From the IMG/VR virus record IMGVR_UViG_3300046171_000269, positions 1-27,030 of that record: DNA of 27,030 nucleotides. One strand, given 5' to 3'. The notes beneath the pieces are model-generated. The model saw only the letters and a list, made by a program, of their open reading frames with translations, ran no database searches and was not told where the DNA came from. Made by a program: the position numbers and the translations under genes. This document shows positions 3 through 12,885 of the stretch, piece after piece. Within the stretch, counting starts at the first letter, position 1. Every line of letters begins with the position of its first letter. Source of the DNA: a virus.

Positions 3-1124
3 TTTGGGGCAAACATCTGGAATATGCCGGGGATTGGTGATGCAGTCAGTTTGGGTGCTGAAGCAAACTATGATTTAATGAAGTTGTTTCATCAGAACAA
101 ACCTACCAATTCAACAACAGGTCGTAAAAATCCAACTGTAATTAATGGAAGTTGGGGATATCAGGCAGCATTTTCTTCAGGTAATACTGTTTCATATAAG
201 TTTCAAGGTAGCACAGGAACATTTACAGGTAATGATTCTGTGAGTAATCAAGTGACTGCGATGAAAGATGGATTAAATAATCAAGTGACTGGTGCTTATC
301 GATCATGGTCTACATCATCAAGATCAAACTCGACTGACACTGCAGCAACTGAAATGATGGCAACAGGTGTGATATATGTTGCTGCTGCTGGAAATAATAA
401 TCAAAGACTTGGTGTTGGTGCAGATGATGTGGATCGTTTAAATTATTTGTCAGATAATTATTATAGTACAACAGATCCGAGATCAGAGTTTCCATCAGGA
501 ACCGTACCATGTAATCATCGTGACTGGATGAATCCACAGGGTAATGGTTTCGATAGTACAACTGATTTTCATCCAACCATATGTGTAGGTGCAATGGAAG
601 AGTATGTTGCAAACGGAACACTTCCATATTCAGGATCGACTGCACTTGCAGAAACAAAAGCATCCTATTCCAATAATGGGCCCGGTATCGATGTCTGGGC
701 ACCTGCTGATGAAACATTATCTGCTGGTACTAATGGGGTGTCAAGTTATGAAGACTTTGCCAGACCTGATGATGGAATAAACTATACAAGTAGCACGACT
801 GGCTCTGATTATTTTGATAGTAATTTTAATGGTACATCTGCAGCAGCACCAGTGGTCACGGGTTTGATTGCACTTTATTTGGAAACAAATCCATCCGCAA
901 CATCTAAACAGGTCAAAGATTTTCTCTTTGAACAGGGGTCAGTTGTGGTTGCTGATGCTCTATATGCTGATCAGTATTCTGATGATTCTCAAACAACTTA
1001 TTGGACAGGATCATTTAATATGAGAGGTGCTCAGAAAAGAATACTTCGTGATAAGACTGCAAGTCCAACTGAACCATCAATCAAAGGTGTCACCGTAACT
1101 GGTGTATCCATTAAACAATCATAA
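3..1124 (+). CDS. Subtilisin-like serine protease (peptidase S8), 5'-truncated
   Basis: The reading frame is open from the first bases of the window, so the gene begins upstream; the ATG at 24 is probably internal. Counting from that Met, the visible part has the S8 landmarks: N-G-S-W-G-Y near residues 41-46 (substrate-strand region), V-A-A-A-G-N at 119-124 with the oxyanion-hole Asn at 124, T-I-C-V-G-A near 185-190, and G-T-S-A-A-A-P-V-V with the nucleophile Ser at 272 (bases 837-839). The catalytic Asp and His lie upstream of the window. After the catalytic core only about 70 residues follow. It sits directly upstream of the fibre cassette and its stop codon is built into a late promoter, so it is probably itself a late, virion-associated or processing protein. 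That role is inferred; the fold call is strong. Confidence 0.85.
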   Translation, partial: FGANIWNMPGIGDAVSLGAEANYDLMKLFHQNKPTNSTTGRKNPTVINGSWGYQAAFSSGNTVSYKFQGSTGTFTGNDSVSNQVTAMKDGLNNQVTGAYRSWSTSSRSNSTDTAATEMMATGVIYVAAAGNNNQRLGVGADDVDRLNYLSDNYYSTTDPRSEFPSGTVPCNHRDWMNPQGNGFDSTTDFHPTICVGAMEEYVANGTLPYSGSTALAETKASYSNNGPGIDVWAPADETLSAGTNGVSSYEDFARPDDGINYTSSTTGSDYFDSNFNGTSAAAPVVTGLIALYLETNPSATSKQVKDFLFEQGSVVVADALYADQYSDDSQTTYWTGSFNMRGAQKRILRDKTASPTEPSIKGVTVTGVSIKQS

Positions 1125-1143: not shown

Positions 1144-2701
1144 ATGGCAGATAAGAGTTTTGGTGTAAAGGAATTAAATTTACTGAATGCTTCAGGAACA
1201 CCAACAGTCACTAGTCCTAATAATCTTAATCTTAATGCAAACACAGTTGCAATAAGCACATCTGCTACTGTCGGAAATAATTTAACAGTTACAAGTACAA
1301 CTAACTCTGCAAACTTAAATGTAACTGGTATCGGAACTTTAACAAGAGCATTTGCAACAGACTTGTCTGTCTCTGGTGTCACTACAATCACAGTGCCAGC
1401 AAATGCAAATCCACATTCATCATGGGATGTTGTTAATAACAGTTCATCTGCATATCGATTTACTGGCCCCGGACAAGATGGAGCAGAGGATAATCCAAAC
1501 ATTTATTTGGTAAGAGGACAAAGATATGTCTTTAAAATGAATGCGAGTGGACATCCATTCCAAATTCGTGTCGCAAATGGTGGTGCAGCATATAGTGATG
1601 GAGTCACTAATAATGGTTCGCAAACAGGAAATGTAGTTTTCAATGTTCAACATGATGCACCTGCACAACTTTTCTATCAGTGTACATCACATGGATCAAT
1701 GGTTGGTAACATCTATATCGTAGGTGGCCCACAAGTTATATCTGGTGTGGTAACTGCAACTACATTTGTCGGAAACTTGACTGGTAATCCAACTGGTAGT
1801 GGTGCAAACTTAACTAACTTACCAGCAGCAAACTTAACAGGTACACTTCCAGCAATCAGTGGTGCAAACTTAACAAGCATCTCAGCAGATGTAGTTAATG
1901 ACACTTCACCGCAGCTGGGAGGTGACTTAGATACTAATACGAAAAATATAAAATTTGGAGATTCTGCAAGTCATGGTGCATCGGGTGATGACACATTAAT
2001 TTTTGGTGCGGATGATGATATGAGGATGTATCATGACGGAGCCAATGGTTTCATTTCTAACAACACAGGTGCATTTGTAATACAAGATTCCCACGCTGGA
2101 GCAAATGCTATTGTTATCCGAAAAGGTGCTGAAGTTGAAATATTACATAATAATGTATTAGCTTTTGAGACATCTACAAACGGATTGGCATTTCCAAATG
2201 GAAAAGGTATTGACTTCTCTGCTGCGAGTGGAAGTAACGCTGGAAGTTCCTCTGCAGTTTTGGATGATTATGAAGAAGGCTCTTTTAGTCCAGCATTTAA
2301 TACTACAGCTAATAATTTAACTTTTACGATTGAGAGTCAGAACTGGAACTAATGGAGCAACACTAGTATCCTCTAACGATTATCTTTCTATGACTAATAA
2401 TGGTGAGACTTTCGCTGCAAATAGTTTTTGGAGATTGAATTACAATAATATTGGTAATGAAGTCGCTGGTAGTTATATTAGAGAAACTTTTAATGCAATT
2501 TTTTACTTTTATGGTTTTGAGGCAAATAAAAGATGTAGATATCATGGCCAGTCTACATATCAAAATAGTAGTGGAACTTTAGTAGGTCAATTTGTAAATG
2601 GTGCAATCACTGATGCCACAGAAGTTACTGGTCTTGAATTTTTCTCGTCATCGGGAAATATTAATCTCGGAAAATTTTCTTTATTTGGAGTTAATGGGTA
2701 A
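1144..2701 (+). CDS. Tail fibre protein with cupredoxin-like domain (one-base frame break near 2344)
   Basis: The first frame gives 402 residues ending at 2352; a second frame, open from 2321 to the stop at 2701, carries the C-terminal domain. Dropping one base near 2344 joins them into about 518 residues. Residues 1-90 are low-complexity beta-repeat (N-L-T, T-A-T). Residues about 105-195 look like a cupredoxin: H137 in G-H-P-F-Q, then C180, H183 and M186 in C-T-S-H-G-S-M, just before a closing strand. Residues 200-245 are G-x-G-A-N-L-T shaft repeats, and D-D-Y-E-E-G-S near 374-380 marks the junction to the variable C-terminal domain. The start follows the late promoter at 1120. The stop overlaps the next gene (TAATG). 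Fibre identity rests on composition and context; the copper-site reading is motif-level. Confidence 0.75.
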
Positions 2702-3000: not shown

Positions 3001-4380
3001 ATGTCAAGTAATTTAAAAGTCAACACAATATTACCATCAACAGGAACTACCATAGGGATAGGAACTGTCGGTGGTTTAATTAATATTGTAGGAAATATCG
3101 ATGTAAATAGCACATCTGGTATTTCAACTTTTAATGGTCTTGAAATATCAGGTATTGTGACTGCGAAGGCTGGTGCTGCAGTAACTTATTATGGTGATGG
3201 ATCAAACTTAACTTCATTACCAGCACAAGCAACTATAGCAAACAATGCCGACAACCGAGTAATAACTGGTGGAAGTGGTGTTAACTTAAATGGCGAGGCA
3301 AATTTCGTTTTTGATGGTACTAATTTAGGTGTAGGTCAACCAAATCCAGAAAATAATAGTAATTTCACAACCCTTACTTTAAACCATGCTACTAATGGAG
3401 GTGTTCTTTCTTTTCAAAAAAATGGTAGTAGAAAAGCATTACTATACAATGATACAAGCACAGGTGATTTAGTTATTCAAAGCGAAGCTAGTAGAGATTT
3501 ACGATTCTATACAAATGGAGGCAATGAAAGAGTTCGCATCGACTCAACTGGTCGAACGCTAGTTTCTGGTACTTTAGGGTATGGTAATATGCCTTTTGGT
3601 GGAAATCCAGCAAACGCAGCAATACAAATAAGATGTAATAGCAAATATAACGGTATTGCTTTTGGAGAAAATGCTGTTAGTGGATGTATTGGTTTAGGAG
3701 GTGCTGACACTACCACAGCAATGGTCTTTACAGCAAATGCTCACCCTGCAAACTTGGGTGGTGGCACTAAAGACATATTTGAATGGTGGTCAGGAAATGC
3801 TGGAGGTGGTGGGCCTAGTAAGTATATGACTCTTGATACTGGTGGTCATCTTGCATTAACCAGTGGTAATTTAGAATTTGCGAATGGTGCTGGTATTGAC
3901 TTTAGTGCTGTTCCTGATGGTAGTAGATCAATAGGCACGGATGGTAACAAATTTGACGATTATGAAGAAGGCTCATGGACGCCAACTATACAAGTTCAAA
4001 GTGGTTCTTTTAGTACTTTTAGTTATCAAGAACAACAAGGTCATTATATTAAAGTTGGTAAACTAGTAACAATCTTCCTTAGATTGAGGTTAGGTACTGT
4101 ATCTGGTAGTGGTAGTGGTAATGTTTATATACATAGTCTTCCTTATGTAAACCATAATATTAATAATGGTTCTGAAGGAGCTACTTTTAGTATAAATTAT
4201 TATAGTCATATGGGTGGATTAGGTAATAGAGTTCCAGTTGGTTATGTGCAACAAAATTTATCACAAATTGTTATCGTATCTGGTGGTCAAGGTAATGGTA
4301 CTACTAGTTGGAACGCAAATAATTTAAATGGTACTAATGGTTGGCAAGTTTACGGTGCTGCATCATATCAAACAGCATAA
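3001..4380 (+). CDS. Tail fibre / receptor-binding protein
   Basis: The gene encodes 459 residues. The N-terminus M-S-S-N-L-K-V-N-T-I matches the start of four other proteins in this cassette and is probably the virion attachment element. Residues about 60-110 carry the N-L-T-S-L-P-A-Q block shared with the fibre at 11797. A G-N-E-R-V-R-I-D-S segment typical of beta-rich phage fibres follows near 173-181. Residues about 320-327 hold D-D-Y-E-E-G-S-W, followed by a C-terminal domain with G-H-Y-I-K-V-G-K-L-V, a motif class common at the tips of marine phage fibres. No frame break is seen. The C-terminal part differs from the other fibres here, consistent with receptor specificity lying there (inference). 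Confidence 0.75.
   Translation: MSSNLKVNTILPSTGTTIGIGTVGGLINIVGNIDVNSTSGISTFNGLEISGIVTAKAGAAVTYYGDGSNLTSLPAQATIANNADNRVITGGSGVNLNGEANFVFDGTNLGVGQPNPENNSNFTTLTLNHATNGGVLSFQKNGSRKALLYNDTSTGDLVIQSEASRDLRFYTNGGNERVRIDSTGRTLVSGTLGYGNMPFGGNPANAAIQIRCNSKYNGIAFGENAVSGCIGLGGADTTTAMVFTANAHPANLGGGTKDIFEWWSGNAGGGGPSKYMTLDTGGHLALTSGNLEFANGAGIDFSAVPDGSRSIGTDGNKFDDYEEGSWTPTIQVQSGSFSTFSYQEQQGHYIKVGKLVTIFLRLRLGTVSGSGSGNVYIHSLPYVNHNINNGSEGATFSINYYSHMGGLGNRVPVGYVQQNLSQIVIVSGGQGNGTTSWNANNLNGTNGWQVYGAASYQTA
3204..3327 (+). repeat. Shared fibre block, copy 1 (mate at 11961-12084)
   Basis: The segment aligns base for base, without gaps, to 11961-12084. It encodes N-L-T-S-L-P-A-Q-A-T-I-A-N-N-A-D through E-A-N-x-x-F-D-G-T. 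Differences are mostly third-position changes, implying either old exchange or purifying selection. Confidence 0.8.
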
Positions 4381-4383
4381 ATA
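4376..4383 (+). promoter_or_regulatory. T4-type late promoter, CATAAATA
   Basis: CATAAATA overlaps the stop codon of the fibre gene. The following leader differs from the others (AATATTGCC). A good ribosome-binding site, GGAGGA at 4408-4413, precedes the ATG at 4422. Confidence 0.6.
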
Positions 4384-4421
4384 ATATTGCCTAAACCAGT
4401 TTAGTTCGGAGGACAATCCTA

Positions 4422-4728
4422 ATGGCACTTGCAGAATCAATTGAATACGATAAAATAGAAGTCGTTGGTCAGTACAAGCATGTACAGGTCAGAAAAAGCT
4501 ACAGTCATCAAAAAAGACGGAACAGAAATTACAAGATCTTTTGAAAGATTTGTTCTTGATCCCGGAACATTAGATGCATCTGATAACCTTGTTGATAATC
4601 CATTAACAAAAGAACCAGATGGTACAACAGATATTGCAGACGAAGTTAAAGCAGTATGCACAGCAGTCTGGACAACAACAATTAAAGATGCATGGAAAGC
4701 AAAGTTGATTGCTGATAAACCAGCATAA
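4422..4728 (+). CDS. Conserved cyanophage small protein, broken by one extra A
   Basis: An ATG at 4422 with GGAGGA nine bases upstream opens a frame beginning M-A-L-A-E-S-I-E-Y-D-K. At the A5 run 4493-4497 the frame is lost. Removing one A gives V-R-K-A-T-V-I-K-K-D-G and a continuous 101-residue protein ending at 4728. An apparent alternative start near 4465 would drop the N-terminus and lacks a ribosome-binding site. I recognise the wording (E-Y-D-K-I-E-V-V-G, V-R-K-A-T-V-I-K-K-D-G, A-V-W-T near the end) as a family often seen among T4-like cyanophage fibre genes. Its function is unknown; position suggests a fibre accessory protein. Confidence 0.7.
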
Positions 4729-4731
4729 ATA
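4724..4731 (+). promoter_or_regulatory. T4-type late promoter, CATAAATA
   Basis: CATAAATA followed by ACTAAAAAG, with the preceding stop codon embedded. It lies 13 bases before the ATG at 4745. Confidence 0.65.
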
Positions 4732-4744
4732 ACTAAAAAGAAAT

Positions 4745-5695
4745 ATGCCCTATATTGGTCGCGATTTAAGTCAAGGAAACTACCTCAAACTGGATAACAT
4801 TGAGTCCCAGTTTAATGGGAGTAAGGTATCTTTTGATCTGACTGCTGGTGGATCGGCATTTTTTCCCGGATCATCAATGGCACTTCTTGTGTCAGTTGGT
4901 GGTGTAGTTCAAGAAGCAGAGACTGCATATACAATCGATCAATCAAGTATTGAGTTTGCATCAGCACCAAGTGCTGGTGATGATTGTTATATTATTGTAA
5001 TGGGTACATCAATTGGTGTATCCGTTCCTGCAGATGGATCTGTGACAATGGCAAAATTGGCACAGAGTGGAATTGATAGATTATCAAGTGTAGGAATACA
5101 ATCAGGTGGTACAACCATTGGAACTGGTGTCACCTTTATTAATTTTAGTCAATCAGGATTAACAGCAACAGTCTCTTCAGGTATTGCAACAGTTAATCTT
5201 GGTGGTAAGACAGACGAAGAGATACAAGACATTGTTGGTGCAATGTTCTCAAGTAATACTGAGACAAACATCACAGCAACTTATCAGGACTCAGACGGAA
5301 CGATTGATTTAGTTTCTGATAAATTAACAACAGAAGAAGTTCAGGACATTGTTGGTGCAATGTTCAGTGGAAATACAGAAACAAATATAACAGCAACCTA
5401 TGAAGACTCTGATGGAACAATTGATTTAGTTGTTGCAGGTGGAGGTAAGTTTGTATCATCTTCTTCAGGTATTCATACTGCATCGAATGTAGGTATTGGT
5501 ACAACACAGTTCACAACTGACATGGTTGGAGCAGGTAATTCTTTTCAGGGAATGTATATAAGTAACGGAATGACAATATATGATAATGAGTTAAATGGTA
5601 ATCATTATATCAGCACAAACTTCAATGGACTCATGGCAGGGCCAGTCACAGTTAATGGTGCATTAACGGTCGATGGCAACTATGTTGTGGTCTAA
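4745..5695 (+). CDS. Tail fibre protein with tandem 33-residue repeat
   Basis: A 316-residue protein. The N-terminal 100 residues (starting M-P-Y-I-G-R-D-L) resemble the attachment domain of short phage fibres, with V-S-V-G-G-V-V-Q-E near 49-57. Bases 5216-5314 and 5333-5431 encode two near-identical 33-residue units (E-E-I/V-Q-D-I-V-G-A-M-F ... D-G-T-I-D-L-V) separated by six residues, a shaft repeat familiar from phage fibres. The C-terminus ends G-P-V-T-V-N-G ... Y-V-V-V, matching the ends of the two mini-fibres at 9854 and 10087. It has no D-D-Y-E-E-G junction, so it belongs to a different sub-type from its neighbours. Confidence 0.7.
   Translation: MPYIGRDLSQGNYLKLDNIESQFNGSKVSFDLTAGGSAFFPGSSMALLVSVGGVVQEAETAYTIDQSSIEFASAPSAGDDCYIIVMGTSIGVSVPADGSVTMAKLAQSGIDRLSSVGIQSGGTTIGTGVTFINFSQSGLTATVSSGIATVNLGGKTDEEIQDIVGAMFSSNTETNITATYQDSDGTIDLVSDKLTTEEVQDIVGAMFSGNTETNITATYEDSDGTIDLVVAGGGKFVSSSSGIHTASNVGIGTTQFTTDMVGAGNSFQGMYISNGMTIYDNELNGNHYISTNFNGLMAGPVTVNGALTVDGNYVVV
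5216..5431 (+). repeat. Two tandem 99-bp coding repeats
   Basis: Copies at 5216-5314 and 5333-5431 encode 33-residue units differing at only three positions (I/V at 3, S/G at 13, Q/E at 24). They are separated by 18 bases. Confidence 0.85.
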
Positions 5696-5698
5696 ATA
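5691..5698 (+). promoter_or_regulatory. T4-type late promoter variant, TCTAAATA
   Basis: TCTAAATA contains the stop codon of the preceding gene and is followed by CTAAAAAAAG, a version of the cassette leader. It lies 20 bases before the ATG at 5719. Confidence 0.55.
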
Positions 5699-5718
5699 CT
5701 AAAAAAAGTCTTCGATAA

Positions 5719-8700
5719 ATGGGCATTCAGATAAACGGAAATACGAATAATATAAATGCCGGTATTGGTTCTTTAAGTATTGAAGATATAAATGAACTTG
5801 ATATTGTTGGTGTTGCCACTGCTGCTAATTTTAAAACAGGTATATCTAATTTACACTCTGTTGGTCTAACATTAACCGGTGGTCAAATAGATGTAGGAAG
5901 TAATATTAAAATAGGTAATGCAGGTGTTATAACTGCAACAAGTTTTGTTGGGTCTGGTTCTAACTTGACTGGTATTATATCAGATAAAATATTTGAAGGA
6001 AATACAAAAGCAGAAGTTGTAGATACTGGATCTGATGGGAAATTTATAGTTGAAACTGAAGGAACTCAACGATTAGAAATAAATTCAACAGGTAATATTA
6101 CATTAGGAACTGCATCTGCTACAGGTAATAAATTATATTTCCAATCAGCATCTGGTGCTGCACAATATATTGCATCTGGTGGAACTAATAATCGAGACTT
6201 ACTAATTGCATCTTCTTCTGGAACATGGTTAAGTATCACATCAACTGGTGAAGTAAATATCGGTGGCAATTTCACTGAAACATCTCATCCTTTTAACATA
6301 AGTCATTCAACTAAACCATCCCTTGCTCTTCACACGGGCACAACTCTTCGTGCTGATTTTTCTGCTACTAGTGGTATAACCAGTATTAGAAGTTATGCTA
6401 ACAGTCCATTCACCATAAACATTGGTGGTTCTGGAGAAACTGAAGCACTTCGCATCACAGGAGACGGTAAACTTGGTGTCGGTGAACTTTCCCCATCAAA
6501 TGCATTGCATATTTCTGGAACTACAGGTACTTCTGCTGGTGGTCTTTTAAGATTAGATGCAACGACTGGTGATAACTTTATTTTATATGATAATACTCAT
6601 GATAATTCTGAATGGGGCTGTCGGAAATGATTCTGCCACAAGAGGTAATTTTGATTTTTGGTATAATAGTGGAGGTGGTTATCCCTCAAATCCAATTGTT
6701 CGTTTTAATACAACAGGTGTCACAGTACAGGGTAACACAGTCGCTGATGATAATACTTTAACTGCAATATCAAAAACTGCAAGTTCAAGTACTTATGTAG
6801 ATGTATTTGTATATGATACAAGAAAGGATAGTGATGGTGGTGCATGGAGACATCGTACTACTAACACATCTTGGTATAATGAAACATTAAATACTTCAAT
6901 TCGTGGTGCGAGAAGAGAATTTCCACAGGTTGCTATTGTTGCAGTAGGTGTTTCATACATTCATATATTTGATGCAGATGATCCTGATATGCCAATGTGG
7001 ATGGAGTTTCCTGCTCCCTCTGGTGGTGCAAGAAATGTAATGTATGGGCCAGGCAATCCTCGTACAGTGTACATGTTAAATGGTATTCTTTGTACAGGGT
7101 CACAATCCACAAGTCATTGGCCAATTTTAATTGATTTTATTCGTGATGATATACTTGGATTAATGGAAGCAACTGGACATCAGCAATATAACGGAAGACA
7201 AGGAAATATTTCATTAAGAAACTCAGCAACATCCGATAGTGGTTTGTGGTGGCCTGGTACTATAACTGGTTCTGGAGGTGGTGCTGGTGCGACTCAAGGT
7301 GCTATGGTTACAAAGAGATGGTGGTTTGATGGTCTTCTCGTAAATAGATTTGTAACTAGCGTTGTGATGAGTGTAAGACCAGAGGCACCAATAGATAAGA
7401 CAACTGGTATGCAGATCCCAACAATTTACCTTGGTTCTAGAGGTGGAGTGAGTATCATTCATTCTAATGTTGGTGATACTGGAACATCTTATAATTCAGG
7501 TGTTTATGATATTACTTCAAATAATGCTGACTATAGTGCTATTGGTGATATTACAATCACAGAAGAGGGTTTCCTTTGGGGATTATGTGACAGTTATCAA
7601 AGTTTTGCAACCTATCGAGATTCCGTTGTAATAGATCTTAAACGCCTTGATAATCAATTGAATGATATAGTGACAAGACCAGACACTGATACTATAACAT
7701 CAGGTTTGAATAATCAAGGTGGTGGAAGTACAAACAAGGGTAGAGAATATTATTGGGTATCCACAGGTGGTGAGGGTGGGTCTCATAAGATTGGATATTC
7801 TAATACTTGGGGCTGCCACTATTGTAGAAAGAAATGGTTGGGGTTGTTCTGCAGGTTTTGCACTTCATACAAAACCAATTTATACTTATGATCATAAAGA
7901 AAGTAGTAGTTTTTTAGTGCGTTCTCATGAAAATCGTGGATTAGTTGCTATGATTACGAAGGATTATAATACAGGTTGGCATATGACAGGAAGCGTAATC
8001 TCATGTTGTTACATCGCTGATGGTTTAACTTCATCAATTAGTGGTGCTGATGCAATGATTGATCGTGGTCATCATGCAAGACAACTTGGTGTTACTGGAA
8101 CACTTACAAGAGCAGCATGTGCAACAGGTTCAGATTTGACTTGTGTATCAGGGTTTAATAGTAGTAACCATGCTAGAACAATTAATGCAAGTTTAAATGC
8201 TGGCAACCCAATCGATATAACATTGATGGGATGGATAAAAGTTACAGATATCAGTAGTTATTCTTATCTCTGTAGTATAACAACAGGATCTGCTAATATG
8301 GGAATTGCAGTTCATTCTAGTGATTCTACAAGTGGTGGAAAACCATATTTTTATGATAGTACTCACGGATCACTACAAGGAGATAAAGGAGTAAATGATG
8401 GAGAGTGGCATCATGTTTGTGGTGTGTTTTCTTGTAGTTCAAATCGTAAAATTTTATATGTTGATGGTGTGAGAAGTGGTGGAACAGTAGCACCATCGAA
8501 TGTAGATTACAGTGATTTAGATACAATTGCTGTTGGACATTGGTGTAACAATGATAATACAATAAATCATTCTTGTACAGGTTCTCTTGCACTTGTAAAA
8601 CTTGGTCAGACCGATTTAACTGACCAACAAATAAAAACAATTTACGAAGATGAGAAAAAATTATTCCAACCAAATGCGAAAGCATTCCTTTATGGAAGTA

Positions 8701-8864
8701 GTAATGGAATTAATGCAATTGGTTATGATGAAAAGAAAGAAATATATCATGTTGGAACATCATCTGGACGCAGTGACTTCAGTGGGCTAAGTAGAATAAA
8801 TAATACAACCACCGCAGTCACCACTGCTATCTCAGCATATGACGGTCTTATCGCAGAACAGTAA
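5719..8864 (+). CDS. Long tail fibre protein with LamG-like C-terminal domain (two one-base frame breaks)
   Basis: Three overlapping frames (5719-6630, about 6602-7891, about 7803-8864) join into about 1047 residues if one base is dropped at each of two TGGGGCTG sites (6613-6620 and 7808-7815). The N-terminal part has G-V-x-T-A-T-S-F-V-G-S-G-S-N-L-T shaft repeats and a G-L-T-L-T-G-G-Q-I-D-V-G-S-N block shared with the fibre at 10323. The middle is Gly/Trp-rich and unrecognised. The last 250 residues contain D-I-T-L-M-G-W-I-K-V and D-G-E-W-H-H-V-C-G-V-F ... Y-V-D-G-V, the signature wording of concanavalin/LamG-type sugar-binding jelly rolls. This domain is unusually Cys-rich. It probably binds host surface glycan (inference). 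The stop overlaps the next ATG. Confidence 0.75.
5827..5976 (+). repeat. Shared fibre block, copy 1 (mate at 10572-10721)
   Basis: A 150-base block encoding N-F-K-T-G-I-S-N-L-H through G-S-N-L-T-G-I. It aligns without gaps to 10572-10721 in the fibre gene at 10323. Confidence 0.75.
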
Positions 8865-9472
8865 TGGCAATTAGAGTTGAAAAACCAGCATTCAATGTAA
8901 GGGAAAAGTTAACAGAACTTGACTCTGCTTCAATCCCTTATGAGAGAATGCCAAAAGGATCTGTAATTCAGGTGCAACACAAGTATTTTACTTCTTATAC
9001 ATCAGTCGGTGCAACAACAACACCAACTAAATTTTTTGATGTAAACATATATCCAAAAAGAAAAAGAAGTAAGTTTCTCGTTAATGCGATTATTTACTAT
9101 TCACACGGTGGCATAGGATCTTCCAATGCTGATGGATATGATTACTACTTTTATCTTTATAATAATGAACAACCAATTCATCAAAATACAAACTTAACAA
9201 GAGATTGGAATAACAGTTATAGCAATGATAATGCTTGGTACAAAACTGATGTTCCAATAGCTTCAAGCACTGCAACTCATTCTTTTAATTATTTTGCAAT
9301 TCATGAAAATGTGCAGATGTTAGATGACCCACAAGATTATGAAGTTGGTGAACCAATAAATTATAGTTTAAGATTTATGTGTCAAAACACATTGATATTG
9401 AATAGGGCATTACAATCAAATGGGCAGAATGGTGGAACAAGTAGTATTACAGTAATGGAGGTTGCTTCGTAA
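8864..9472 (+). CDS. Fibre-associated virion protein, unrecognised
   Basis: A 202-residue protein coupled to the long fibre by TAATG. The N-terminus (M-A-I-R-V-E-K-P-A-F-N-V-R-E-K-L near residues 1-16) resembles openings seen on marine phage structural proteins. It is followed by M-P-K-G-S-V-I-Q-V and an aromatic, beta-rich domain (Y-D-Y-Y-F-Y-L-Y near 90-97), plausibly a small jelly-roll head. No enzymatic motif is visible. Co-translation with the fibre and the following chaperone-like gene suggests a tip or collar component of the same fibre. Confidence 0.6.
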   Translation: MAIRVEKPAFNVREKLTELDSASIPYERMPKGSVIQVQHKYFTSYTSVGATTTPTKFFDVNIYPKRKRSKFLVNAIIYYSHGGIGSSNADGYDYYFYLYNNEQPIHQNTNLTRDWNNSYSNDNAWYKTDVPIASSTATHSFNYFAIHENVQMLDDPQDYEVGEPINYSLRFMCQNTLILNRALQSNGQNGGTSSITVMEVAS

Positions 9473-9834
9473 TGAATATTGCAGATGTATTAGGTACAAA
9501 TTATGGTACAAAATGTTGGATGTTAACTTCACCAGATGATTATTCTGCATTGGAGTGGAAAGATGCCTCTGAAAAACCAACTGAAGAACAATTAAGAAAT
9601 GAATTATCTGCGTTAGAAAATGCAGAACCAATGCGTCGTTTGCGTATTCGTAGAGATGAATTGCTAAAAGAAACTGATTGGAGTCAGGGAAAAGATGTTC
9701 CTGTTGGGATACAATCTTCTTATGTTAATTATAGACAACAACTTCGTGATTTACCAAGCACTGCTACACCTGTATTAGATGAAAGCACTGCTGTGGGTAT
9801 TGCAAGTGTCACTTGGCCAACGAAACCATCCTAA
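9472..9834 (+). CDS. Phage tail assembly chaperone-like protein
   Basis: A 120-residue protein coupled to the gene before it by TAATG. Residues about 60-110 contain R-R-D-E-L-L-K-E-T-D-W-S ... Y-V-N-Y-R-Q-Q-L-R-D-L-P, the pattern of the phage tail-fibre assembly chaperone domain (R-x-x-L-L-x-x-T-D-W ... Y-R-Q-x-L-R-D). Such proteins usually follow the fibre gene they help fold, as here. Residues 1-45 are less conserved in character. The stop is immediately followed by a late promoter. Confidence 0.75.
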   Translation: MNIADVLGTNYGTKCWMLTSPDDYSALEWKDASEKPTEEQLRNELSALENAEPMRRLRIRRDELLKETDWSQGKDVPVGIQSSYVNYRQQLRDLPSTATPVLDESTAVGIASVTWPTKPS

Positions 9835-9840
9835 TAAATA
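9833..9840 (+). promoter_or_regulatory. T4-type late promoter, AATAAATA
   Basis: AATAAATA followed by ACTAAAAAGATATATG, the commonest form of the cassette leader. It lies 13 bases before the ATG at 9854. Confidence 0.6.
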
Positions 9841-9853
9841 ACTAAAAAGATAT

Positions 9854-10090
9854 ATGTCAACTTTAAGAGCAAATGTTATCGACTCAGCAGTTAGTACTGA
9901 GTTTAAAGATACGGTCACTGCAAATGGTGATAAGCAGTGGGTGGACTCTTATGGTGTCATAAAAACAAATCGTAATAACATTGGTGAAGATGTAACCATA
10001 CCATCAGGAACTAACGGACTATCAACAGGCCCAGTTTCAATCAATAGTGGTTTCACTGTAACTGTAAATGGAGAGTGGGTGATAGTATGA
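9854..10090 (+). CDS. Mini-fibre protein, copy 1 of a tandem pair
   Basis: A 78-residue protein. It starts M-S-T-L-R-A-N-V-I-D-S, contains E-F-K-D and K-Q-W-V-D-S-Y-G-V-I-K near 17-20 and 27-37, and ends G-P-V-S-I-N ... G-E-W-V-I-V. It is clearly paralogous to the next gene and its C-terminus matches the fibre at 4745. The N-terminal motif matches those of full-length fibres, so it looks like a fibre reduced to attachment motif plus C-terminal cap. The function is unknown; it may be a short attachment or plug protein at the same site. Confidence 0.65.
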   Translation: MSTLRANVIDSAVSTEFKDTVTANGDKQWVDSYGVIKTNRNNIGEDVTIPSGTNGLSTGPVSINSGFTVTVNGEWVIV

Positions 10091-10326
10091 GTAAACTAAT
10101 TGTCAACACGATTGATTCAAGATCAGCAAGCACAGAATTTAAAGATATAATCACTGCAAATCATAGTAAGCAGTGGGTAGATAAATATGGTGTAATCAAG
10201 GCATTTAAAAATACCATTGATGAAAATGTTACTATACCTTCAGGTACAAACGGTGTCAGTGCAGGGACAATCACAATCACTTCAGGATATGCAGTCACCG
10301 TTCAGGGTGAATGGAGGATCGTATGA
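10087..10326 (+). CDS. Mini-fibre protein, copy 2 of a tandem pair
   Basis: A 79-residue protein whose ATG overlaps the previous stop (ATGA). The in-frame GTG/ATG at 10075 would add four residues but lacks the conserved M-S-K-L-I-V-N-T-I-D-S start. It aligns nearly end to end with its neighbour: T-E-F-K-D-I-I-T-A-N, K-Q-W-V-D-K-Y-G-V-I-K, V-T-I-P-S-G-T-N-G, and a G-E-W-R-I-V end. It is followed by a full fibre with the same N-terminal motif, again by an ATGA overlap, so three related starts occur in succession. Confidence 0.65.
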   Translation: MSKLIVNTIDSRSASTEFKDIITANHSKQWVDKYGVIKAFKNTIDENVTIPSGTNGVSAGTITITSGYAVTVQGEWRIV

Positions 10327-11780
10327 CAAGTAAGTTAGTTGTAAATACAATTGAAGCAGATACTGGTATATCATCAGTATCATTTGCAAGTAGTATCAGC
10401 ATGGATTCTACTTCCAAGTTTCATTTCAGTGCAGCAGGAGTTGATATCGGTGCAGATACAAATATAAATCGACCAGCAGCAGGAGTCTTAGGTTTTAATA
10501 TTAGTGGTGCAGAGAAACTTCGTATTGATACAAACGGTCATTTGAATACAAGTGGTATCGTTACAGCAGCAAACTTTAAAAGTGGTGTTACCAATGTTCA
10601 TAACTTAGGAGTAACACTTACAGGTGGCCAGTTGGATGTAGGAAGTAATATTAAAATTGGAACTGCTGGAGTTGTAACAGCAACATCATTTGTTGGTAGT
10701 GGTGCAAACCTAACAGGAGTATCAGGAGTATCAGTCGCAAACCAAGCAGATAATAGATTAATAACTGCGACAGGAACAACAGATGCATTAAATGCTGAAG
10801 CAAACTTGACCCTTGGTAATAATCTTCAGTTCACTACCACTGCTAATGGTCACGCAGTAATATTAAAGTCAACAGGAAATTATTATAATAAACTTTCATT
10901 TGATAGTGGTAATACATCTGCTGGTGGTTCACTTGCATTTATTGATTTTAGTTGGGATGGCGATAAAGTAGCAGATATATTTGCAGTGGCTGGTTCTGAT
11001 ACAACCAATAAAGATGATGGTCATTTAGTTTTCAGAACTTCACCATCTCAAGGTAGTATAGCAGAAAGACTTCGCATAGCATCTGATGGAAAAATTACTG
11101 TTGCTGCTAATAGTGATATTAGATTTACAAACGGAACTTGGACTGGAGAGGTAGCTGGTAAGATACAACAAAATTCAAATAATTTATACATTCAAGGTGG
11201 AACTGGAGGAATTAGATTTAGACATGCTTCATCAGGAGTCAATCAATTCTCAATGACCAATGGTGGAGATTTTCAGATAACAAATGGGAATGTAGTAGTT
11301 GCGTCTGGTCATGGTATTGATTTCTCTGCTGCAAGTGGAAGTGGTAGTGGAAGTGATAGTTCGCTTTTGGACGACTATGAAGAAGGCTCTTGGAGTCCTC
11401 TTTGGTCTGATGCAACATCTGGAGGCACAACAACTTCCAATAATATGCATGGTAGATATACAAAAGTAGGTAAATTAGTAACAGCACATTTTTGGACTTG
11501 GGGATTACCAGTACAAGGAACAAATAACGCAATGTATTTACAAGGTTTACCTTTTGCTTCTGGTACAATTGGTGCAACTTTTCATCCTATTGGTTGTGCT
11601 TTTTTTAATATGGGTGCTGATAATTATCATAACTTAGGTCTTCGTCTTGCCAACAATGTCACTTATGCTCCTTTGCTATTCTGTCGTAAAGATCCGGGTG
11701 ATAAAACTCCTGCTTTATTTAGTGGTTTTATTAATTATTATACGAACTTTGAAGGAACAATTACATATTTAACAGCATAA
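10323..11780 (+). CDS. Tail fibre / receptor-binding protein
   Basis: About 485 residues from the ATG at 10323, chosen over 10311 because it overlaps the upstream stop (ATGA) and gives the cassette N-terminus M-T-S-K-L-V-V-N-T-I. Beta-repeat shaft segments include A-E-K-L-R-I-D-T-N-G and G-V-V-T-A-T-S-F-V-G-S-G-A-N-L-T. A block near residues 84-133 is shared with the long fibre at 5719. G-H-G-I-D-F-S-A-A-S-G-S-G-S-G-S leads to D-D-Y-E-E-G-S-W and a C-terminal domain with G-R-Y-T-K-V-G-K-L-V. The C-terminal 130 residues differ from the other fibres. Confidence 0.75.
   Translation: MTSKLVVNTIEADTGISSVSFASSISMDSTSKFHFSAAGVDIGADTNINRPAAGVLGFNISGAEKLRIDTNGHLNTSGIVTAANFKSGVTNVHNLGVTLTGGQLDVGSNIKIGTAGVVTATSFVGSGANLTGVSGVSVANQADNRLITATGTTDALNAEANLTLGNNLQFTTTANGHAVILKSTGNYYNKLSFDSGNTSAGGSLAFIDFSWDGDKVADIFAVAGSDTTNKDDGHLVFRTSPSQGSIAERLRIASDGKITVAANSDIRFTNGTWTGEVAGKIQQNSNNLYIQGGTGGIRFRHASSGVNQFSMTNGGDFQITNGNVVVASGHGIDFSAASGSGSGSDSSLLDDYEEGSWSPLWSDATSGGTTTSNNMHGRYTKVGKLVTAHFWTWGLPVQGTNNAMYLQGLPFASGTIGATFHPIGCAFFNMGADNYHNLGLRLANNVTYAPLLFCRKDPGDKTPALFSGFINYYTNFEGTITYLTA
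10572..10721 (+). repeat. Shared fibre block, copy 2 (mate at 5827-5976)
   Basis: Gap-free counterpart of 5827-5976. Confidence 0.75.
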
Positions 11781-11783
11781 ATA
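11776..11783 (+). promoter_or_regulatory. T4-type late promoter, CATAAATA
   Basis: CATAAATA with the upstream stop codon embedded, followed by GTCAAAAAGATATATG. It lies 13 bases before the ATG at 11797. Confidence 0.65.
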
Positions 11784-11796
11784 GTCAAAAAGATAT

Positions 11797-12885
11797 ATGT
11801 CAATTCTAAGTGTAGATACAATACAACCAATCGGAAGTGGTAGCACAGTAACTCTGAATTCTGCAAAGATTGTTGTTGGAACTGGTATTACATTTGAATC
11901 AAACGGACAAGCAATATATGCAGGTATTATCACTGCAACATCATTTAGTGGGAGTGGTGCAAACTTAACTTCATTGCCAGCACAAGCAACTATCGCAAAC
12001 AATGCAGATAATAGAGTTATAACTGGTGGTAGTGGTGTTAACTTAAATGGTGAAGCAAACTTAACTTTTGATGGAACAGAATTAAAGATAGGTGGAGACT
12101 CTAGTGTCGCTGGTACTTTTGGATTAGAGGTTTATAATACTGCTAGTAATGAAGGAACTGCACTAATTGCTGGTACACAAGGTGCAAGACTTGATATTAT
12201 GGACACAGGTTCATCAGAAAGACTTAGAATCTCTGCTTCTGGTGCAATATATTTTATATCATATAAGAGTGGTGACGATATTATATTTCAAAACACAACT
12301 GGATCAGGAACAGCAGAAGTACTTCGTGTCAAATCTGATGGTAATGTTTCAATAGCTGATGGAAATTTAATTGTGGCGAATGGTCATGGTATTGACTTCT
12401 CTGCTACTAGTGACAGTGGTAATGGAACGATGGGAAATGAACTTTTCGATGATTATGAAGAAGGCTCGTGGACTCCATCATTTAGTACAGCAAATTCTTC
12501 TGGAACACTTGGAAGTTTGGCATATACTTATCAAGAGGGAAGATATGTAAAAATTGGGTCTACAGTTTATATAGAGGGTGCATTGAGAACATCAAGTGTT
12601 GCTAATAATGGAAATGGTACATATGATATTGCTGGTCTACCCTTTACTAATACTTCTGGTGGAACTAATGGAACTGCTGGTATCATTCTTTGTGGTTCAC
12701 AATTTAGTTGGACTAATGCTCCACATCAATTTAGTCCGCTTGCTAGTGCTACATATATGCGAGCAAGAGGGGGAATATCTGTTGGAGATGCGACTTATAC
12801 AAATGGTTACACTGCAGATTTTAACACCAGTTCTGGTTCACATAACAGAGTTTATTTTAGTGGAACATATAGTGTTGATTTCTAG
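11797..12885 (+). CDS. Tail fibre / receptor-binding protein
   Basis: A 362-residue protein starting M-S-I-L-S-V-D-T-I-Q, a variant of the cassette attachment motif. It has V-G-T-G-I-T-F and I-T-A-T-S-F-S-G-S-G-A-N-L-T shaft repeats, then a 124-base block (11961-12084) matching 3204-3327 without indels. S-S-E-R-L-R-I-S and A-E-V-L-R-V-K-S-D-G-N are fibre-type repeats. D-D-Y-E-E-G-S-W-T-P introduces the C-terminal domain with G-R-Y-V-K-I-G-S-T-V. It is the last gene of the fibre cassette. Confidence 0.75.
   Translation: MSILSVDTIQPIGSGSTVTLNSAKIVVGTGITFESNGQAIYAGIITATSFSGSGANLTSLPAQATIANNADNRVITGGSGVNLNGEANLTFDGTELKIGGDSSVAGTFGLEVYNTASNEGTALIAGTQGARLDIMDTGSSERLRISASGAIYFISYKSGDDIIFQNTTGSGTAEVLRVKSDGNVSIADGNLIVANGHGIDFSATSDSGNGTMGNELFDDYEEGSWTPSFSTANSSGTLGSLAYTYQEGRYVKIGSTVYIEGALRTSSVANNGNGTYDIAGLPFTNTSGGTNGTAGIILCGSQFSWTNAPHQFSPLASATYMRARGGISVGDATYTNGYTADFNTSSGSHNRVYFSGTYSVDF
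11961..12084 (+). repeat. Shared fibre block, copy 2 (mate at 3204-3327)
   Basis: Gap-free counterpart of 3204-3327 in the last fibre gene. Confidence 0.8.

Follow-up and report, generated by a model that had tools for sequence, protein, structure and literature searches.

The window analysed here is a 27,030-nucleotide stretch of viral DNA (positions 1 to 27,030 of IMG/VR record IMGVR_UViG_3300046171_000269). Its left end encodes the C-terminal part of an S8 (subtilase) peptidase (positions 3–1124, plus strand; Pfam PF00082, E 3.9e-15), followed on the same strand by an open reading frame (ORF) of the ORF list for a 402-residue tail fibre at 1144–2352. The fibre contains a predicted cupredoxin domain, supported by AlphaFold2, Foldseek comparisons against the PDB and BFVD, and dN/dS, at residues 97–195 (1432–1728, plus strand). 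It begins after some 96 N-terminal residues, and no fewer than 200 more residues (shaft) lie beyond it. Four putative copper ligands, all on the plus strand and assigned from sequence, conservation and alignment, lie in this domain: H137, the first His (codon CAT, 1552–1554), placed by alignment with rusticyanin; C180, the thiolate ligand (TGT, 1681–1683); H183, the second His (CAT, 1690–1692); and M186, the axial Met (ATG, 1699–1701). A sequence check puts the ORF and the four residues exactly where the original prediction had them, and the end of the domain also agrees with the residues, about 105–195, given there, while its start is better set at about residue 97.

Residues 1–194 of the fibre correspond to a protein of Prochlorococcus phage P-SSM2 annotated as 'putative T4-like proximal tail fiber' (tblastn, 42.9%, E 4e-27), and residues 1–240 correspond to the tail fibre of Sf-CH5 (tblastn, 43.4%), bearing out the earlier assignment of the domain to a fibre protein. 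The order of an S8 peptidase gene followed by a cupredoxin fibre gene is also found in P-SSM2, Sf-CH5 and S-SCSM2R, and the N-terminal homology together with this order marks the protein as a T4-like, P-SSM2-type tail fibre. In addition, gp32 of the window is 81% identical to gp32 of P-SSM2/P-SSM5. On the basis of the fibre homology and the gp32 identity, the window virus appears to be a P-SSM2-like T4-type phage, and its host is probably Prochlorococcus or Synechococcus.

A 93%-identical relative shares the N-terminal module but differs greatly in its distal part, whose last residues read by eye as an S74-type chaperone domain. In the window, the fibre ORF ends at 2352, a short way downstream of a 'DYEEGS' motif, and its end is overlapped by an ORF in another frame (2330–2701) that resembles the distal part of the fibre. 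A homology search found no relatives of this second ORF, and the overlap may represent a frameshift, a misassembly or the boundary of a module. Positions 3001–12885 hold a series of further fibre-like ORFs, several with a common 'DYEEGSW' motif, and the series resembles a cassette of fibre genes that have been duplicated or can be exchanged.

To obtain a structural model of the domain, we ran AlphaFold2 on residues 91–195 with a 45-row alignment as input (model numbering is residue number minus 90). The model has nine strands, a mean pLDDT of 95.6 and a pTM of 0.87. A Foldseek search of the PDB returned type 1 copper proteins with a probability of 1.00 and E-values of 5.5e-5 to about 6e-4, the top matches being rusticyanin, AcoP, plastocyanin, copper nitrite reductase, Nmar1307, pseudoazurin and amicyanin, and type 1 copper proteins and multicopper enzymes account for most of the best 50 PDB matches. 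The TM-scores against solved cupredoxins are moderate (0.5–0.69), with the best value, 0.63/0.69, obtained for Nmar1307, a purple cupredoxin (5fc9). The predicted structure is a Greek-key beta sandwich with no fewer than the seven to eight strands of a cupredoxin, its nearest solved structures are cupredoxins, and residues 97–195, approximately, almost certainly adopt this fold, so that the fold part of the check proposed with the original prediction comes out in its favour. In sequence comparison, the single domain sequence retrieved nothing significant from Pfam or the PDB, and a profile built from 45 relatives reached, without significance, a laccase in the PDB at E 0.05 and the C-terminal domain of copper nitrite reductase at E 0.12, the latter match spanning the C-x2-H-x2-M strand. 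Among viral proteins in BFVD, predicted small 'beta-sandwich proteins' of Pithovirus-/Marseillevirus-like giant viruses (A0A481Z6J5, A0A481Z7Q7 and A0A481YVH3) match the fold with E-values of 3e-8 to 4e-7.

In the AlphaFold2 model, H137 sits in a loop just ahead of strand 49–52, C180 terminates the penultimate strand 85–90, and H183 and M186 occupy loop 91–96, ahead of the closing strand 97–103 (model numbering). This is the textbook strand and loop placement of cupredoxin ligands. All four residues align on the ligands of rusticyanin in hhalign, with G-H-P-F-Q-I over G-H-S-F-D-I. Rusticyanin (1rcy) and AcoP, both from Acidithiobacillus ferrooxidans, are the top Foldseek matches, and rusticyanin shares similar G-H-(P/S)-F-(Q/D)-I and C...H...M-x-G-x-I motifs with the fibre domain; it differs in its longer ligand loop (C-x4-H-x4-M), and both proteins are stand-alone electron carriers, not virion proteins, with 15–19% identity to the domain. 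Amicyanin (1aac) is closer in spacing: its C-x2-H-x2-M-x-G segment aligns with that of the fibre without gaps, confirming the equal C-x2-H-x2-M spacing that had been pointed out for the two, and the M-x-G-x-(V/I) closing strand is also shared; the first His is displaced by two columns. Amicyanin differs in reading CTPH where the fibre domain reads CTSH, and in being a secreted electron carrier. Plastocyanin resembles the domain in fold and in kind of ligand, and its M-x-G motif, present in amicyanin as well, recurs around M186; its spacing, however, is C-x2-H-x4-M. For these comparisons the query sequences of amicyanin, plastocyanin and rusticyanin were checked against their PDB entries, and the single-sequence hhalign probabilities are low (19–42%) despite E-values of 3e-4 to 1e-3. 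Many cupredoxins carry a Pro just before the second His and an Asn just after the first; the fibre domain has neither.

The complete ligand set that had been claimed is thus borne out by the sequence, the model and the alignments, with His, Cys, His and Met in the canonical order and at the canonical strand positions of a type 1 copper site. Judged by homology, H137, C180, H183 and M186 very likely make up a copper-competent metal site. The 402-residue fibre has no cysteine other than C180, which rules out an intrachain disulfide, and 55 of 88 complete ligand-bearing frames likewise contain exactly one Cys, the ligand, so that an intrachain disulfide partner is absent there too.

To follow the ligands through the family, we aligned 194 distinct domain sequences from 341 loci, of which 118 were left after reduction at 85% identity. 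All four ligands are present in 80 of the 118 non-redundant homologues, whereas the first His, the Cys and the second His are all absent in 35, 30 of which keep the Met. Two homologues have the Cys without either His, and one has a gap at the first His that is by eye an alignment artefact (its residues are G-H-P-L). The ligand set is nearly all-or-none across these homologues: the first His occurs in 80/80 members of the lineage that bears the Cys and the second His, and in 0/37 elsewhere. This lineage was defined by the Cys and the second His; the first His and the Met, outside that definition, are invariant in it, and the ligands make up four of its six invariant columns (out of 100). Since one of the scan patterns used for collection contained the Cys, the proportions are not population frequencies. 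Pairwise dN/dS between the window domain and six relatives is 0.07–0.23.

Ligand-less lineages still conserve core columns (e.g. Y31, L83, P80, G69 and F33), and a ligand-less branch is itself predicted to be a cupredoxin (pLDDT 83, best matches AcoP). Because fold and core persist in these domains, the ligand residues are dispensable for the fold, and the gain or loss together of residues dispensable for the fold is the pattern expected of a metal site. Resolution of the tree is poor, with six to eight label changes, about three of them on supported branches. The independent events behind joint ligand loss are few, and a sign test for it was not significant (three supported independent pairs, at most seven). 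Other phages have relatives that lack the ligands, which shows that the module can work without metal. Ephrins are a metal-free cupredoxin fold serving in binding, and the predicted structure of the ligand-less phage branch is near ephrins too; the window domain, in contrast, retains all four ligands. The loci L063, L072 and their relatives form big branches that have lost His, Cys and His and kept the fold. One ligand-less domain (L072:3001-3282) matches Pfam PF25489, the 'At5g54830-like domain', just under the cut-off (E 2.3e-5), which hints at possible eukaryotic relatives of the domain.

A tblastn search with the domain matched 356 of 50,697 phage records (E < 1e-3), nearly all of them marine cyanophages, and in IMG/VR at least 590 stretches encode relatives. 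Many of the phage matches are the C-terminal domain of Kyanoviridae gp9, the 'baseplate wedge tail fiber connector', and the remainder include proximal tail-fibre, hypothetical and podovirus proteins. In line with this, PHROG 677, the 'baseplate wedge tail fiber protein connector', matches the window fibre with an E-value of 3.9e-33, in a match confined to the C-terminal 175 of the 412 profile positions, which we read as a domain in common and not as the whole gp9 protein. The gp9 domain is homologous and has the same ligand set; it lies at the end of its protein, unlike the window domain, which is in the N-terminal half of the fibre. The gp9 annotations are silent on copper and cupredoxin. 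Every domain copy resolved end to end in the divergent isolates P-SSM2, Syn19, syn9, P-SSM4, P-GSP1, P-HM1, Melnitz and Baldr has the full ligand set. Taken together, the searches point to a family-wide property of marine T4-like phages, not one peculiar to the fibre of the window. In a viral protein at L057:1470, with counterparts in L058 and L059, the domain occurs at least three times; one copy lacks the ligands (QSGM), and H, C, H and M are all present in two.

A pattern-limited scan of cellular genomes gave four relatives, all of which (4/4) keep H, C, H and M. Specifically, in Flavobacterium glaciei (L077:2777-4312) the domain is combined with CHRD domains, and in a Methylotenera MAG (L079:3800-4249) it carries all ligands; in both, the N-terminus resembles a lipoprotein signal by eye. 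Going by these signals, read by eye, the same domain seems to occur in exported bacterial proteins as well, where copper loading would be ordinary.

With fair confidence overall, we interpret the locus as encoding a cupredoxin domain with a complete ligand set, drawn from a large fibre/gp9-connector family, for which a copper-stabilised fibre base or joint is the most likely role. The long tail fibre of T4 is held at its proximal end by gp9, and the domain recurs on either side of what would be the baseplate–fibre joint. Lying near the base in the fibre and at the C-terminus in gp9, the domain is more likely to be a structural or joint module than a tip that contacts a host receptor. Of the three roles suggested originally (stabilising the fibre, binding host metal receptors, carrying redox activity), stabilisation accordingly fits best and receptor binding becomes less likely. 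In some fibre-like homologues, however, the domain lies about 10 residues or less from the C-terminus, so roles may differ. In the mechanism we propose, the fibre protein would be made and trimerised, metal-free, in the host cytoplasm; the pre-formed site would take up one copper per chain once available copper is encountered, either at lysis of the host or by the virion in sea water; and this metal would rigidify the domain and so stabilise the fibre base or the gp9–fibre joint. The cytoplasm contains minimal free copper, and cupredoxins are normally loaded outside it, whereas phage fibres fold inside. Loading after lysis is therefore assumed. Copper occupancy in virions is rather more probable than its absence, and the structural role, taken by itself, has somewhat less than an even chance of being right.

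The metal-loaded fibre could instead act in adsorption, mimicking a metal source or being grasped by a host metal-uptake receptor. This would carry over to copper the 'Ferrojan horse' hypothesis put forward for tail-fibre iron. Metal-bearing tail fibres have a precedent: the T4 gp37 tip holds seven irons on HxH motifs, and the same iron motif has been proposed for marine phage tail fibres (PMC11705849). The domain is indeed on virion appendages, and a tip position is possible for the homologues that carry it near the C-terminus. Nevertheless, the HxH sites bind octahedral iron without a cupredoxin fold and no HxH array is involved here, while the window domain lies N-terminal to the shaft and its gp9 counterpart ends the connector, whereas the distal tip is where a receptor-binding element should lie; we consider adsorption an unlikely role. 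A redox- or copper-responsive switch, in which copper reduction or loss near a photosynthetic host loosens the joint and aids fibre deployment or baseplate triggering, would suit the location at fibre bases and in gp9, the inherent redox activity of type 1 sites and the many hosts that are oxygenic phototrophs. It would have to be reconciled with ligand-less relatives that function in comparable proteins and with type 1 sites being built to change little on reduction, and we regard it as quite improbable. The ligand residues might also bind another metal (Zn(II), or Cu(I) only), or bind none and be conserved because they pack or hydrogen-bond; zinc can be bound by H2CM sites, and phages assemble in the cytoplasm. 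Joint loss of H, C and H with a conserved core is hard to explain by packing alone, though, and the spacing is that of amicyanin, which leaves this explanation with a rather small likelihood.

Two further readings were rejected. Fibres are rich in beta structure, and a chance motif in an unrelated beta domain can be imagined; yet the C..H..M motif arises in 0.024% of shuffled versions of the window fibre protein, and with the fold prediction, the PDB matches and the family-wide invariance this excludes chance with near certainty. The other reading, that the domain is a captured plastocyanin (PetE) of photosynthetic electron transport, draws on a record of the Synechococcus phage S-SCSM2R, in which an orthologous short ORF of 168 residues (XQU50115.1; L373:4001-4507) was deposited as 'PetE'. 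This ORF consists of a fibre-type N-terminus and the cupredoxin domain. Resemblance to the plastocyanin/azurin family Copper-bind (PF00127, curated cut-off 21.2 bits) is weak: a Pfam scan of the window proteins assigned no family to the domain and gave no PF00127 match, and relatives scanned singly all scored below the cut-off, at 13.6–15.9 bits, some of them across nearly the entire model; one P-SSM2 fibre copy matches at E 1.8e-4. S-SCSM2R, P-SSM2, syn9 and Sf-CH5 each possess a separate, genuine petE of 107–131 residues that scores above the Pfam cut-off, which refutes the PetE reading for these phages. PetE is a small, exported, stand-alone carrier, whereas the fibre copy has no signal peptide by eye and is fused to fibre sequence within a 402-residue protein, and an identity with PetE is ruled out as extremely implausible. 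Fibre domains of this kind should be kept out of counts of plastocyanin auxiliary metabolic genes; in one deposited record such a domain has already been taken for one.

Cupredoxins are familiar as small electron carriers, or else as domains of oxidases, outside the cytoplasm. Our literature search, with few subscription journals in its scope, found no report of a cupredoxin, blue copper or plastocyanin-like domain in a phage tail, fibre, baseplate or virion, and the one paper found that pairs cupredoxin with cyanophage appears to concern Borg elements. Type 1 copper sites that look intact, placed in a structural tail domain of hundreds of sequenced cyanophages, thus seem to be undescribed: the site as such is ordinary for a cupredoxin, its setting is unusual, and the virus group is very large. 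Copper may be bound to the particles of many marine viruses. A bolder version, in which the virions of many Kyanoviridae and related marine phages are copper metalloparticles, with gp9 trimers and fibre bases bearing type 1 copper centres that are loaded after lysis and lock or redox-switch the joint, has in our estimate a low probability; if true, an abundant class of marine viruses would be a copper pool and copper-dependent in adsorption. Cultured isolates open the question of copper in cyanophage virions, and of its effect on stability or adsorption, to direct study.

The S8 peptidase gene upstream of the fibre gene adjoins cupredoxin-bearing fibre genes in several cyanophages, and S8 genes were present in 6 of the 24 related contigs examined, many of which are fragments. 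In ACG-2014e, an S8 domain and a cupredoxin domain are encoded in one ORF, and the same is probably true of ACG-2014i; the loci noted for this S8 association, besides window positions 3–1124, are L347:1767-3827 and L353:1767-3839. The adjacency and fusion suggest a functional link between the S8 peptidase and the cupredoxin fibre.
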